NCBI GenBank assembly: GCA_022826705.1
Contig: JAJDUJ010000023.1
Location: forward strand, 1 to 64,000
Direction: 5' to 3'
Source: Acidimicrobiia bacterium
Lineage (GTDB): Bacteria > Actinomycetota > Acidimicrobiia > Acidimicrobiales > Bin134
DNA length: 64,000 nucleotides
Shown: piece after piece, positions 22,961 to 37,222 of the stretch
Numbering within the stretch: position 1 is the first letter of the stretch
How the letters are laid out: the number at the start of each line of letters is the position of its first letter
Notes under the pieces: model-generated
What the model saw: only the letters and a program-made list of their open reading frames with translations
Database searches by the model: none
What the model was told of the DNA's origin: nothing
Translations under genes and position numbers: made by a program

Positions 22961-23740
22961 TTAGTTCGACTTGGCGTGGAGGCCGCCGTCTACCAGCACG
23001 ACGGCGCCGTTGATGAATGATGCGGCGGGCAGCACCAGCGAAAGAGTGACCTGGGCTACCTCTTCGGGATCGCCGTAGCGACGGGCCGGGACCCGGCGAC
23101 GGGCGTATTTCTTCTTGGCCTCTTCGGGGATGTCGCCGGTCATTGCGGTGCGGATCGGGCCGGGACAGATCGCGTTGGCGGTCACCCCCCACTGGCCCAG
23201 CTCCACGGCCAATGCCCGGGTGAGCCCGACCACGCCGTGCTTGCTCACGGTGTAGGGGGATGTATTGGGCGTGGCCATCACCCCCTCGGTGGAGGCCACG
23301 TTGACGATGCGGCCGTCGCCGTTGCGCTTCAGGTCGTCCAGGCAGGCCCGCACCAAGCGCATCTGTGCCGTGAGGTTCACCTCCATGGCAGCGGCCCACA
23401 CGTCCTCGTAGTCGGCGGCCTCCACCGGAGCGCCGGCGGCAATGCCCGCGTTGTTGATCAGGATGTCCACCGGGCCCAGTTCGTTCCGAACCTGCTCCAC
23501 CACTGGTTCCACCACTTCGGGATCAGCCAGGTCACAGGCCACCGCCAGGGCAGTTCCACCCGCGTCGACGATGGCCGCCACCGTCTCCTCCACCCCGGAG
23601 CGGTTGACGTCGAGCGCGACTACCTTGGCCCCCTCGTCGGCCAGAAGCCACGCGGTGGCCCGGCCCATGCCCGAGGCCGCACCGGTGACCACCGCCACCC
23701 GACCGGCCACCGACCGGTCTAACTTGCTGAGGCGAGTCAT
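22961..23740 (-). CDS. SDR family oxidoreductase
   Basis: A 259-residue classical SDR: TGAASGMG near residues 19-26, ALDVNRSG with the NAD-selecting Asp, NNAG, NVASTEG with the Ser, YTVSK catalytic pair and a FabG-like tail GAVVLVDGGLHAKSN. It is translationally coupled to the ogt gene (TGATG at 23738-23742), an odd partnership of a DNA repair enzyme with a metabolic dehydrogenase. The substrate is unknown. Confidence 0.75.
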   Translation of the reverse strand: MTRLSKLDRSVAGRVAVVTGAASGMGRATAWLLADEGAKVVALDVNRSGVEETVAAIVDAGGTALAVACDLADPEVVEPVVEQVRNELGPVDILINNAGIAAGAPVEAADYEDVWAAAMEVNLTAQMRLVRACLDDLKRNGDGRIVNVASTEGVMATPNTSPYTVSKHGVVGLTRALAVELGQWGVTANAICPGPIRTAMTGDIPEEAKKKYARRRVPARRYGDPEEVAQVTLSLVLPAASFINGAVVLVDGGLHAKSN

Positions 23741-24306
23741 CAGCCCCGGTGGGCGCTCTCGTGCTCCAACAGCCAGGCCTTCACATCGGGGCGTCCTCCG
23801 TACTCCCCCACCGACCCGTCGCTGCGAACAACTCGATGGCAGGGCACCACCAAGGGGATCGGGTTGCTCGACATCGCCGTCCCCACCGCTCGGGCCGCAC
23901 CAGGAGAGCCAGCCATAAAGGCCAACTCCCCGTAGGAAACCGTCGTGCCGTAATCGACGGTCATCAGCGTGTCGAGCACCCGGCGATAGAACCCGTGGCT
24001 CAGGTGCCAGTCCAAAGCCAGCTCGAACTGGTGTCGGCGACCCTCGAAGTACTCGCCAAGCTGGGCGAAGGGCTCGTCCAGCCAGGCAGGGTTGCCCTCG
24101 CCCATCGAACCGGGCAGTTCGGCCAGCTCGGCCATCATGTCTGCCCTTTCCTCCATGTAGCCGAATCCGACCCTCACCAGCCCTTTCGAAGTAGCGGCAA
24201 CATTCAGAGGTCCGATTGGAGTGTCCAGCGACCCCAAGGCCACACCGAGGTCATCGACCTCTGGTGATACAGAATCGGAGCGAGTCAGCAGCGCAGTTGG
24301 AGACAT
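23740..24306 (-). CDS. ogt: Methylated-DNA--protein-cysteine methyltransferase
   Basis: A 188-residue Ogt/MGMT suicide repair protein. The active site PCHRVV carries the Cys that takes the alkyl group from O6-alkylguanine. GTTVSYGELAFMAGSPGAARAVGTAMSSNP holds the recognition helix and arginine finger. Length fits the family. ATG at 24306 is preferred because TACGGT is 7 nt upstream. It heads a two-gene unit with the SDR and is divergent from the aminoglycoside-phosphotransferase-like gene. Confidence 0.9.
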   Translation of the reverse strand: MSPTALLTRSDSVSPEVDDLGVALGSLDTPIGPLNVAATSKGLVRVGFGYMEERADMMAELAELPGSMGEGNPAWLDEPFAQLGEYFEGRRHQFELALDWHLSHGFYRRVLDTLMTVDYGTTVSYGELAFMAGSPGAARAVGTAMSSNPIPLVVPCHRVVRSDGSVGEYGGRPDVKAWLLEHESAHRG

Positions 24307-24313
24307 GGCACTG

Positions 24314-24319
24314 ACCGTA
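24314..24319 (-). promoter_or_regulatory. Putative leaderless -10 box (TACGGT)
   Basis: Minus-strand TACGGT, 7 nt before the ATG at 24306. Confidence 0.4.
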
Positions 24320-24372
24320 GCGGAAGACCAGACTGACGCGGTGGAGTCATCGGACAGCGAGAACCGGAAGTC

Positions 24373-25434
24373 ATGAGCACGCAAGAGTCATCGAGTACCG
24401 ATATCGCTGGAATCGATGTAGCGCCGGTCACTGCCTGGCTAGCCGGCAACATCGCCGACAGCGAGCCGCCGTTCACCTTCGATCTGATTGCCGCCGGCGG
24501 GTCCAACCTCACCTTTCGACTGGCTGATTCCGGAGGCCGACAGTGGGCGCTGCGGCGACCCCCGGTTGGATCGGCGCTGGCCACTGCCCACGACATGGGA
24601 CGGGAGTGGCGCATCATGGCCGCTCTAGGCGAGGCCAGCGACGTGCCGGTGCCCGAGATAGTGGCCTTCTGCGACGACCACACGGTGAACGGAGCCGACT
24701 TCTACGTGATGAGTTTCGTGGAAGGGCGCATTCTGAGGGACCAGGACTCGGCCGCCGACATGACCCCCGAGCAGGCCGAGATCGCCACCCAGAGCCTGCT
24801 CGACGTGCAGATCGCCTTCCACACCCTCGACCTCGACGAGGTGGGGCTGGGCGACTTGGGCCGCCGGGAGGACTATGTGGGCCGTCAGCTCAAGCGCTGG
24901 CGCCGCCAAGTGGAAGCCGCCGGGGTGCGAGAGGTGCCACTGCTCATCGAGTTGCACGAGCGGCTGAGCGCAGCCAAACCAGCCGAGACTGCCTCCCCAG
25001 CGTTGGCCCACGGCGACTATCGGTTCGACAATACCGTGCTCGATGACCAGTGGAAGATCGCCGCAGTCTTGGACTGGGAGTTGTGTACCACCGGCAATCC
25101 CATCGCCGACTTCGCCTGGTCGCTCCAGTACTGGGCCGATCCCGGCGATGAGATGAGCTTCCTAACCGATCCGCCCACCCTTCAGGACTGCTTCGTCCGC
25201 CGCCAGGAGGTAGCCGACCGCTACGCCGCCCAGTCGGGCTTCGACCTGTCCGACCTCCCCTACTACGCAGTGTTCAGCTGGTGGAAGCAGGCCTGCATCG
25301 TGGAGGGGGCATACGCCCGCCGCTTACAGGGGATGACCGGCGGCATGGGAACCACCGGCGATGTCCACGACATCGCCCGAAGAGTGGACGCCATGCTGGG
25401 CCACGCCGCCGATATGGCCACCGGAGTTCTCTAG
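24373..25434 (+). CDS. Phosphotransferase family protein (APH/ACAD10-like)
   Basis: A 353-residue protein of the aminoglycoside phosphotransferase fold. AAGGSNLTFRL makes the nucleotide loop, ALRRPPVG the Lys/Arg region, HGDYRFDNTVLD the catalytic loop with Asp and Asn, and VLDWELCTTGNPIADFAW the metal-binding Asp. Members near acyl-CoA dehydrogenases (ACAD10/11 N-domain) phosphorylate 4-hydroxyacyl-CoA compounds, which fits this catabolic neighbourhood better than antibiotic resistance. Single gene, convergent with the permease gene. Confidence 0.8.
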   Translation: MSTQESSSTDIAGIDVAPVTAWLAGNIADSEPPFTFDLIAAGGSNLTFRLADSGGRQWALRRPPVGSALATAHDMGREWRIMAALGEASDVPVPEIVAFCDDHTVNGADFYVMSFVEGRILRDQDSAADMTPEQAEIATQSLLDVQIAFHTLDLDEVGLGDLGRREDYVGRQLKRWRRQVEAAGVREVPLLIELHERLSAAKPAETASPALAHGDYRFDNTVLDDQWKIAAVLDWELCTTGNPIADFAWSLQYWADPGDEMSFLTDPPTLQDCFVRRQEVADRYAAQSGFDLSDLPYYAVFSWWKQACIVEGAYARRLQGMTGGMGTTGDVHDIARRVDAMLGHAADMATGVL

Positions 25435-30546: not shown

Positions 30547-30582
30547 CGCTCACTGTCTTCTGCCCATAGATTGGGAGCCGCA

Positions 30583-31242
30583 GTGAGACTGGTGATCGCA
30601 CGATGTTCGGTGGACTACGACGGCCGGTTGGCCGCGCACCTGCCCGAGGCAGTGCGGCTCATCATGATCAAGGCCGACGGCTGTGTGGCCATCCACGCTG
30701 ACGGCGGCGCCTACAAGCCGCTGAACTGGATGAACGCCCCCAACCGACTGTCGGAGGAAGACGGCGTTTGGACGGTGGTGAACCCGGCCGGCGAAAAGCT
30801 GACCATCACCATCCACGAGCTGATCTCCGACACCGACCACGAATTGGGTCATGATCCCGGGCTCGACAAAGACGGCGTGGAGGCCCACCTCCAAGAGTTG
30901 CTGGCCGCATCCCCCGAGATGCTGGGAGAAGGCTTCCGGCTGGTGCGGCGGGAATATCCCACCGACATCGGCCCGGTGGACTTGCTGTGCCGAGATGCCG
31001 ACGGGAACGCCATTGCCGTAGAGATCAAACGGCGCGGGGAGATCGCCGGAGTCGAACAGCTCACCCGCTATCTCCAGTTCTTGAACCAAGATCCGGCGCT
31101 GGCCCCAGTCCGGGGCGTGCTCGCCGCACAGGTCGTCCGTCCTCAGGCCCGGGCTCTGGGCACCGACCGGGGCATCGAGTGCGTGGAAATCGACTACGAC
31201 CTGCTCCGGGGCATCGAACCCGACCAGGCCAAGCTGTTCTGA
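30583..31242 (+). CDS. nucS: Mismatch-specific endonuclease NucS/EndoMS
   Basis: A 219-residue NucS. The N-terminal beta domain starts [15 protein letters not shown], with the conserved YKPLNWM loop. The C-terminal RecB-like nuclease carries Asp133, Glu147 and Lys149 (PVDLL...VEIKRRG). In actinobacteria lacking MutS/MutL it cuts both strands at G:T, G:G and T:T mismatches and lowers mutation rate. The last residues QAKLF resemble the sliding-clamp-binding tail. The GTG at 30583 has GGGAG in front and matches the usual NucS N-terminus better than TTG at 30571. Confidence 0.9.
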
Positions 31243-34545: not shown

Positions 34546-35451
34546 ATGGCATTGAGTTTTGACAACCGGGTGGCGATCGTCACCGGGGCTGGAGGCGGCC
34601 TGGGGCGCCTGTATGCCCTGGAGTTGGCCCGGCGAGGGGCCCGGCTGGTGGTAAACGACTTGGGCGGGGCGGCCGACGGTACCGGGGCCAGCGAAGGACC
34701 GGCCCAGTTGGTGGCCAACGAGATCAACGATGGTGGCGGCGAAGCGGTGGCCGACACCAACTCAGTGGCCACCACCGAGGGCGGGGCGGCCATCACCGCC
34801 ACCGCGGTGGAGGCGTTTGGGCGGGTGGACGTGGTTGTAAACAACGCCGGAATCCTGCGGGACAAGACCTTCCACAAGCTGGAAGACGATCAGCTCCACC
34901 CGGTGCTCGCCGTCCACCTCCGGGGGGCGTTCAACGTGACCCGGCCGGCCTTCGTCCAGATGCGAGAGCAGGGCTATGGCCGCATCGTGTGCGCCACGTC
35001 CAACGCCGGCGTGCTGGGCAACTTCGGCCAGTCCAACTACAGCGCAGCCAAGATGGGATTGGTCGGGCTCACCAACACGCTGGCTCTGGAGGGAGCCAAG
35101 TACAACATCAAGGCCAACTGCGTGGCCCCGGTGGCCACCACCCGCATGACCGAGGCCATTTTCGGCGAGGAGATCAAAGAGGCCATGAGCCCGGAGCACG
35201 TCACCCCGGTGGTGTGCTTTTTGGCCCACGAGGACTGCCCGGTTTCGGGCGAGGTGTATTCCGCGGCCGGCGGCACCGTGGCCCGATTCTTCATTGGCCG
35301 GACCCCCGGCTACTACAACCCCGAGCTCACGGTCGAGGACGTGGCCGAGAACTTCGACCAGATCCGCGATGAAACCGGCTACAAAGTTCTGAACGACGCC
35401 AACCACGAGGTGGGCGTGGCCTACAAGACGATAAGGGCAGCACGCGAATGA
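34546..35451 (+). CDS. SDR family 3-hydroxyacyl-CoA dehydrogenase-like protein
   Basis: A 301-residue SDR of the MFE-2 dehydrogenase type: TGAGGGLG, NDLGGAADGTG, NNAGILRDKTFHK, SNAGVLGNFGQSNYSAAKMG with the Tyr/Lys pair, and a C-terminal extension (GGTVARFFIGRTPGYYNPEL) as in the SDR at 2198. It probably oxidises a (3R)-hydroxyacyl-CoA with NAD. Its stop is inside ATGA of the PAP2 gene, so the two are coupled, although a functional link between them is not obvious. Confidence 0.75.
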   Translation: MALSFDNRVAIVTGAGGGLGRLYALELARRGARLVVNDLGGAADGTGASEGPAQLVANEINDGGGEAVADTNSVATTEGGAAITATAVEAFGRVDVVVNNAGILRDKTFHKLEDDQLHPVLAVHLRGAFNVTRPAFVQMREQGYGRIVCATSNAGVLGNFGQSNYSAAKMGLVGLTNTLALEGAKYNIKANCVAPVATTRMTEAIFGEEIKEAMSPEHVTPVVCFLAHEDCPVSGEVYSAAGGTVARFFIGRTPGYYNPELTVEDVAENFDQIRDETGYKVLNDANHEVGVAYKTIRAARE

Positions 35452-36128
35452 CCGCTGACGAGGCCGAGCGCCCCGAGGAAGCTCCCGAAGCGGTCGACTC
35501 GCTGGAGGACCTCGAAGACGAGGACCTCGACGATGTGGCGTTCTTCGGCGAAGCGCTCGACCACGAGGCGCTTGACGGCGAGGCGTTCGAGGAGGACGTC
35601 CCTATAGGCACCTCGCCGGCCGTCGAGGCCTTTGACGAGGCCGTCGAGCAGATCTTCGCCCGCTTACGGGGCAACCCGGTGGCCGACCGGATGTTCTACA
35701 CCGCCTCGGAACTGGGCAACTTCAGCATCCTGTGGCACGCCCTGGCCTGGGCGGGAGCAACGTCCAAGCGAGGCCGCCGCCGGGCCATGCGGGTGTCGGT
35801 GGCCCTGGCGGTGGAGTCAGCGCTGGTCAACGGGCCGATCAAGTCGGCGTTCAACCGCTCTCGCCCATTGGCTGAGCACGACCACCCCCATCGCTTGCGC
35901 CAGCCGATCACCAGCAGCTTCCCCAGCGGCCACGCCAGCGCCGCGGTGGTGGCCGCCGTGTTGCTGTCCGAGTCCCGTCGCCGCCGTTGGCCCTTCTGGG
36001 CAATCGCCTCGGTGGTGGCGGCCAGCAGAGTGCATGTGCGCATCCATCACGCCTCCGACGTGGTGGTGGGCGCTCTCGTGGGGACAGTGATCGCCCGGCT
36101 CTTCAAGAAGATCTGGCCCCTCCGCTAG
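35448..36128 (+). CDS. PAP2 superfamily membrane phosphatase
   Basis: A 226-residue PAP2 enzyme with an unusually acidic N-terminal tail of about 50 residues (repeating LED/EDLD and DHEALDGEAF), then helices carrying the three phosphatase motifs: KSAFNRSRP (Lys132, Arg139), PSGHAS with His162, and SRVHVRIHHASD with the second His and Asp. It would dephosphorylate a lipid such as undecaprenyl diphosphate or phosphatidate on the outer side. It starts in an ATGA overlap with the SDR; the fusion gene follows after 14 nt. Confidence 0.85.
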   Translation: MTADEAERPEEAPEAVDSLEDLEDEDLDDVAFFGEALDHEALDGEAFEEDVPIGTSPAVEAFDEAVEQIFARLRGNPVADRMFYTASELGNFSILWHALAWAGATSKRGRRRAMRVSVALAVESALVNGPIKSAFNRSRPLAEHDHPHRLRQPITSSFPSGHASAAVVAAVLLSESRRRRWPFWAIASVVAASRVHVRIHHASDVVVGALVGTVIARLFKKIWPLR

Positions 36129-36142
36129 AGGGCAAGAAGAAC

Positions 36143-37222
36143 ATGGCCGATCGAGCCACCGTCGGCGTCTACGAGAACCGGGCTGGCGAATGGCTGGCCC
36201 AGCGCCAGCCCAAATCCACCGCCGGGGTCGAGGCTTTCGCCGCTCTCGACCGACCCGAGGGAGTCACCGCCGATTTGGGCTGTGGCCCCGGCTGGCATAC
36301 CTCCGTACTGCCCAGCCCGGCGTTGGCCATCGATGCGGCCCGGTCGATGCTGGAGATGGTTCCCGACCACGCGCCCGATGCCCTGCGCTGCCGAGCCGAC
36401 CTGGCCGCGCTGCCTCTGGCCCCTGGGTCGCTGGCCGGGGCCTGGGCATCGCGTAGCTATGTCCACCTCGACCGGCGCCATGTGCCGTTGGCCCTGGCCG
36501 ACCTGCACCGGGCGCTGGCCCCGGGCGCTCCGGTGGAGCTTCACATTTTCGAGGGGGATGCCGACTTCGAGCCGTTCTCCGACGACGACTTCCCGGGCCG
36601 ACGCTTCTCCCAGTGGCCTCAAAACTGGATTGCACCCTTGATGGAGGGGGCCGGATTCACCCTAGATGCGTTGGAGCGATTGGACCGGCCCCCCAAGGTG
36701 GCCACCCTGATCGTCAAGGGCCGCAGAACCCGCACGCTGCCCGACACCGTGGGGCCGGAGATGCGCCTGCTGATCTGCGGCCTGAACCCCAGCGTGTACG
36801 CCGCCGATGCCGGCGCGGGGTTTGCCCGGCCCGGCAACCGGTTCTGGCCCGCGGCGCTGGCCGCCGGGCTGGTGAGCGCCGACCGGGACCCCCGGCGTGC
36901 GCTCATCGACCACGGCGTGGGCATGACCGATCTGGTGAAGCGGGCCACGCCCCGAGCCGACGCGCTCACCGCCGATGAGTACCGCCACGGCCTCAACCGG
37001 CTGGAGTGGCTGGTGGGCTGGCTCAAGCCCGCCGCGGTGTGCTTTGTGGGCCTCGCCGGCTGGCGGGCCGCGATGGACAGAAAGGCAAAGGCCGGAGTGC
37101 AACCCCAGGAGTTGGCCGGTGTGCCGGTTTATGTGATGCCCTCAACCAGTGGGGCAGCCGCCGGGTATCAACTGCCTGACTATGTCACCCACCTCCAGCA
37201 GGCTGCGGCGCTAGCGACCTGA
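36143..37222 (+). CDS. Methyltransferase-Mug DNA glycosylase fusion
   Basis: A 359-residue two-domain protein. Residues 1-190 are a class I SAM-methyltransferase-like domain (ADLGCGPGWHTSVL at 43-56, then LAIDAARSM). Residues 205-359 match E. coli Mug uracil/thymine mismatch glycosylase: LICGLNPSVYAADAG (209-223), FARPGNRFWPA, HGVGMTDLVKRAT and VMPSTSGAA (331-339), where the catalytic Asn and the leaving-base loop sit. The combination suggests base excision joined to modification or to a regulatory SAM sensor. A single reading frame with no stop argues against an assembly artefact. The tail overlaps the converging LLM gene by 38 bp. Confidence 0.8.
   Translation: MADRATVGVYENRAGEWLAQRQPKSTAGVEAFAALDRPEGVTADLGCGPGWHTSVLPSPALAIDAARSMLEMVPDHAPDALRCRADLAALPLAPGSLAGAWASRSYVHLDRRHVPLALADLHRALAPGAPVELHIFEGDADFEPFSDDDFPGRRFSQWPQNWIAPLMEGAGFTLDALERLDRPPKVATLIVKGRRTRTLPDTVGPEMRLLICGLNPSVYAADAGAGFARPGNRFWPAALAAGLVSADRDPRRALIDHGVGMTDLVKRATPRADALTADEYRHGLNRLEWLVGWLKPAAVCFVGLAGWRAAMDRKAKAGVQPQELAGVPVYVMPSTSGAAAGYQLPDYVTHLQQAAALAT

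Follow-up and report, generated by a model that had tools for sequence, protein, structure and literature searches.

The 359-residue protein described here joins a class I SAM methyltransferase to a Mug-type DNA glycosylase in a single chain. On balance, it is best explained as an altered Mug glycosylase with an accessory, probably active methyltransferase, the SAM-binding half of which has undergone repeated deletion, whereas the C-terminal half is retained and would most likely support the glycosylase. The gene lies in a 64,000-nucleotide stretch of contig JAJDUJ010000023.1 from an Acidimicrobiia bacterium, referred to below as the window. The domain combination is real, conserved, and apparently undescribed: literature searches aimed at a methyltransferase-Mug fusion returned no description, in agreement with the first-pass annotation of this DNA, which knew of no example. 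The features of the locus are as follows.

35448..36128, + strand: PAP2-family phosphatase gene upstream of the fusion; it also precedes several truncated orthologues
36143..37222, + strand: whole gene for the 359-residue methyltransferase-Mug fusion, from the open reading frame and domain matches
36143..36451, + strand: SAM-binding half of the methyltransferase (residues 1-103), absent from shortened orthologues
36272..36292, + strand: SAM motif I, DLGCGPG (residues 44-50), with D44, G46, G48, and G50 invariant in full-length members
36452..36721, + strand: C-terminal half of the methyltransferase (residues 104-193; helix D, strands 5-7, helix E), the remnant found in 21 truncated orthologues
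36722..37219, + strand: Mug/TDG-type (UDG family 2) glycosylase domain (residues 194-359)
36785..36787, + strand: Asn215, counterpart of the water-positioning Asn18 of E. coli Mug
36929..36931, + strand: Asp263, at the pyrimidine-reading position (E. coli Mug K68, TDG N191)
37154..37165, + strand: Ala338-Ala339-Ala340-Gly341, the altered DNA-wedge loop of the window's genus (elsewhere LNAH or similar)

A single reading frame encodes both domains

No internal stop interrupts the open reading frame at 36143-37222 (+ strand), and both domains are read in one frame. Residues 1-193 form the methyltransferase, with Pfam matches over residues 44-128 to Methyltransf_25 (30.7 bits, cut-off 27) and Methyltransf_11 (28.3 bits, cut-off 21.2), and residues 194-359 form the Mug/TDG-type glycosylase, with a match over residues 201-342 to the UDG superfamily (PF03167, 43.6 bits, cut-off 24.3). 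The end of the methyltransferase runs straight into the start of Mug at KGRRTRTLPDTVGPEMRLLICGLNP, with no evident linker. An AlphaFold model of the window protein is of low confidence (mean pLDDT 54.6).

The full-length fusion was found in 50 genomes from 22 families, all of the class Acidimicrobiia. It is present in 17 of the 22 genomes of the window's genus (relatives of 'Candidatus Poriferisocius'), its own included, at 84-98% identity, and in 33 genomes of other Acidimicrobiia families at 43-60% identity. Because the one-frame fusion recurs in this way, a frameshift or assembly artifact is excluded. The in-frame, single-chain arrangement that the first-pass annotation had read from the sequence is thus borne out, and the search that it suggested for the same domain order elsewhere gave a positive result within one class. 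Elsewhere in the phylum, sampling turned up only unfused proteins (bare Mugs and separate methyltransferases), and none of the plasmid records searched spans both halves of the fusion.

In the Mug-domain tree, every fused and truncated form falls into a single clade set against bare Mugs (support 100/100). Many of the genomes are draft MAGs, many branches within the clade are weakly supported, and five contig-edge cases were excluded from the state counts. The architecture and the tree show that the fusion to an N-terminal methyltransferase arose once, within Acidimicrobiia. The ancestor was of Mug/TDG type and gained a class I SAM methyltransferase; the glycosylase is the constant part. One clade member, accompanied by the same downstream oxidoreductase, sits in a MAG titled 'Thermoanaerobacterales bacterium' (L070, PKRH01000104.1), the title or binning of which is probably wrong. 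Two Mug-like matches with an in-frame stop (G027:C1:3386068-3386628 and G065:C57:23175-23630), both in bare-Mug genomes, are possible pseudogenes.

Genome context

The gene order shared in the window's genus is SDR dehydrogenase, PAP2 phosphatase, fusion, and a luciferase-like oxidoreductase on the opposite strand; no repair gene adjoins the fusion at the locus. NucS and Ogt, noted in the first pass as encoded in the window, are indeed there, but they lie ∼5 and ∼12 kb from the fusion and are not its neighbors. The NucS_C domain (30877-31236, + strand, within the gene at 30571-31242, + strand) and the Ogt-type domain (23755-23991, − strand, within the gene at 23740-24384, − strand) are each the sole family match in the genome. 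The same genome encodes a family-4 UDG plus another UDG-superfamily protein, read as family 5, so the fusion is not necessarily required for ordinary uracil repair. A defense system was considered and rejected, as no PADLOC model for anti-phage defense matches the fusion and the neighboring genes are metabolic.

The methyltransferase retains an intact SAM site

The N-terminal domain has the defining features of a class I SAM methyltransferase, namely motif I (DxGxGxG) at D44-G50 and an acidic residue, D64, after strand 2. Full-length members are invariant at the glycines and Asp of motif I and at D64, Y10, H108, P115, R153, G169, and G171. Among the genus proteins, dN/dS is 0.16 for the SAM-binding half, 0.10 for the C-terminal half, and 0.14 for Mug, and the intact SAM-binding half is under purifying selection. 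For the window's METHYLTRANSFERASE, the invariant SAM-site residues and these dN/dS values support a putative working SAM enzyme. With its intact SAM site and conserved pocket (Y10, H108, R153, and W158), the window methyltransferase is probably active.

Its substrate is probably a small molecule or a protein, as opposed to DNA. The nearest solved relatives of the domain are 3h2b, 3l8d, 3e23, a D-glucose O-methyltransferase, and a sterol methyltransferase. Free-standing Methyltransf_25/11 proteins (PDB 3h2b and 3e23, and the L113 protein of genome G058, which is 36% identical to the methyltransferase of the fusion) have the SAM motif and the helix/strand order in common with it, but are unfused; in G058 the methyltransferase and mug lie on different contigs. 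Neither the DPPY/NPPY (amino) nor the PCQ (C5) DNA-methyltransferase motif is present in the window sequence or the alignment, and a DNA methyltransferase was rejected on that ground; the domain groups with Methyltransf_25/11 enzymes.

A domain of this kind could instead act as a sensor, with bound SAM or SAH modulating the glycosylase allosterically and no methyl group being transferred. Such a role would suit SAM-site residues that are invariant in full-length members and a domain joined directly to the glycosylase. It is nevertheless very unlikely: H108, R153, and W158, which lie outside the SAM site, are equally conserved and are a better fit to catalysis, and the truncated forms described below manage without the SAM-binding half.

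The SAM-binding half has been lost repeatedly

Twenty-one orthologues lack the SAM-binding half but retain the C-terminal half of the methyltransferase. The N-terminal part of these proteins is homologous to methyltransferase residues 104-197 (hhalign probability 99, E 5.7e-18), and the [LIV]PxxL(x3)[HYR] helix and G[AG][GA]F turn are kept in 21/21. The truncated state is scattered on the Mug tree, requiring 11 changes, at least seven of them forced by supported branches, and it is single in no bootstrap tree. In the youngest truncation, in the window's genus (G001), the PAP2 gene is followed by a start codon and a few residues, after which the sequence resumes at residue 83; ∼75 codons have been lost in frame. 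Two of the 73 clade members in the Mug tree (L082 and L086) are without any remnant. From these states we infer an order of one fusion, then repeated loss of the SAM-binding half, and rarely loss of the rest. Two of the proteins have further peculiarities: the bare L082 (G024:C30:369800-374400, ORF 1973-2860) carries a C-terminal extension of ∼110 residues after the Mug domain, and in the remnant of L084 (G204:C12:130500-135000), GADP is repeated in tandem between the GAGF turn and Mug.

No displaced SAM-binding half was found in the 23 genomes with truncated or bare forms. A moved half acting in trans is excluded, as those genomes hold only distant ordinary methyltransferases, or none. One candidate, a match in G137:C30 (42% over residues 13-102), was rejected because it reads as a separate small methyltransferase.

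Given that the SAM-binding half has dropped out time and again from proteins that keep the glycosylase, methylation appears to be optional or accessory. This bears on the proposal, made in the first-pass annotation, that base excision is coupled to methylation. Of that proposal, the SAM-methyltransferase domain with its intact motif stands, but coupling to DNA methylation is unsupported, given the missing DPPY/NPPY and PCQ motifs, the grouping with Methyltransf_25/11, and the 21 orthologues that have dispensed with the SAM-binding half. A broader version, in which the methyltransferase modifies DNA, the abasic-site product, or a repair partner during base excision, draws on the retention of the direct one-frame fusion across 22 families, on the conserved SAM site and pocket residues, and on the dN/dS of 0.16. 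Against these stand its Methyltransf_25/11 relatives and want of DNA-methyltransferase motifs, the repeated loss of the SAM half from a retained glycosylase, and a locus with no adjoining repair gene, and we judge the coupled enzyme to be quite unlikely.

The remnants allow another interpretation. Two unrelated enzymes may simply share a transcript and a chain, with the truncated forms a product of neutral decay from the N-terminal end of the methyltransferase and the remnant without a role. Remnants change faster in amino acids than Mug (pN/pS 0.40-0.84 vs 0.23-0.41), and therefore decay remains a rival; L082 and L086 are already bare, and the protein has no conserved tie to a known pathway. 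Yet all 21 remnants share core residues and about the same boundary despite separate truncations, and the remnant is wholly missing in just the two members mentioned. Neutral decay is accordingly considered improbable, if less so than coupling. In the explanation that we prefer, the methyltransferase C-terminal half seems tied to the glycosylase, and its persistence after repeated deletion of the SAM-binding half would most likely reflect packing on, and support of, that domain.

The clade carries Asp at the pyrimidine-reading position

Among solved structures, the C-terminal part is closest to E. coli Mug (7.7e-17) and human TDG, which are homologous to it at the fold level across the whole glycosylase domain, and the nearest NCBIfam model is Mug PRK10201 (75 bits, below its cut-off of 144). 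Catalytic Asn215 (E. coli N18, TDG N140; GxNP) is invariant in the clade, and the window protein retains Phe227 (F30, base stacking) and Asn232-Arg233 (N35-R36). Unlike E. coli Mug and human TDG, the window protein has an N-terminal methyltransferase, and its clade relatives a methyltransferase or remnant; it also has Asp at the K68/N191 position and, in its genus, has lost the wedge loop. Bare Actinomycetota Mugs, the nearest glycosylase relatives (33-48% identity), have no methyltransferase part and carry Asn at position 263 in 50/50 sampled.

By alignment, position 263 corresponds to Lys68 of E. coli Mug and Asn191 of TDG, with N123 as the UNG counterpart. Of 78 clade members, counting full, truncated, contig-edge, and secondarily bare forms, 77 have Asp there; of 56 Mugs outside the clade, none does, the residue being Asn in 53, Thr in two, and Ser in one. 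Asp263 thereby departs from the family-2 expectation of Lys, Asn, or another neutral residue. The sole clade exception, L053, keeps Asn and is the first branch of the clade in one tree and unsettled in another, which fits an Asn-to-Asp change that postdates the fusion. Three residues past Asp263, position 266 (36938-36940 in the window) is Lys or Arg in 71/71 compared clade members, with A, E, P, or H in bare Mugs, and this residue may pair with Asp263. In the Mug of Deinococcus radiodurans (2c2p/2c2q), an active-site Asp93 has reportedly been proposed as catalytic.

In UNG, N123 bonds uracil N3 and O4 (PMC5387724), and K68 of E. coli Mug has been equated with N91 of UDGX, which forms bidentate bonds to the uracil base (PMC10776899). 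Changing N123/N204 of UNG to Asp gives a cytosine-DNA glycosylase (PMC3989344, PMC11289083). The hallmark of these engineered CDG/CYDG enzymes is present in the window protein as Asp263, by alignment to K68 and the published equation of K68 with UDGX N91 (PMC10776899). Engineered UNG N204D and E. coli UDG N123D:L191A (CYDG) thus have the same Asn-to-Asp change at the equivalent residue (PMC3989344, PMC11289083), but they are family 1 and laboratory-made, and the natural clade protein is likened to them by sequence alone. An early change in the clade turned the pyrimidine-reading Asn into Asp263, so base preference has probably been altered.

An altered loop replaces the DNA wedge in the window's genus

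The first-pass annotation had regarded the catalytic NP and PSTSG motifs as intact. Asn215 and PSTSG are present, but the Asp263 change and the loss of the wedge were overlooked. The loop that follows PSTSG is unusual in the window's genus, where 17/17 proteins read SG(A/T)AAG (SGAAAG in the window); in the other fusions Asn339 is found in 34/34, mostly within SGLNAH. Bare and fused Mugs outside the genus read SGLNAH or close to it, and the family-2 SGL wedge is kept in most of the clade. The corresponding loop of E. coli Mug, PNPSGLS, contacts the mismatch guanine (PMC12001322), and its TDG equivalent intercalates (PMC3488261). In CYDG, N123D is partnered by loss of the UNG wedge Leu191, and C paired with G is not excised (PMC3989344). 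The combination of D263 and A338 in the window's genus parallels N123D plus wedge-Leu loss in CYDG, a resemblance of sequence only. Loss of the wedge in the genus should weaken base flipping and may limit the enzyme to bases that are already unstable or unpaired.

A more specific proposal is that the clade is a natural cytosine-type Mug lineage that arose fused to a methyltransferase and is now shedding the SAM-binding half lineage by lineage. Asp263 would read a C4-amino pyrimidine, such as a mispaired or modified cytosine, and wedge loss would have tamed the genus enzyme, as in CYDG. This fuller scenario is, at present, a speculative and rather unlikely one.

Implications

DNA-methylation coupling is a weaker lead than the Mug clade itself, in which the base-reading residue has been switched and the methyltransferase partner is optional. 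The clade amounts to a natural experiment, in which full, half, and bare forms of one protein occur within one class and the SAM-binding half has been repeatedly removed. The Asn-to-Asp change sits at the position that switches UNG from a uracil to a cytosine glycosylase, and it raises a natural cytosine-type enzyme in the superfamily as a testable possibility. If modified or mispaired cytosine does prove to be excised, these proteins would offer a natural starting point for glycosylase-based base editors.
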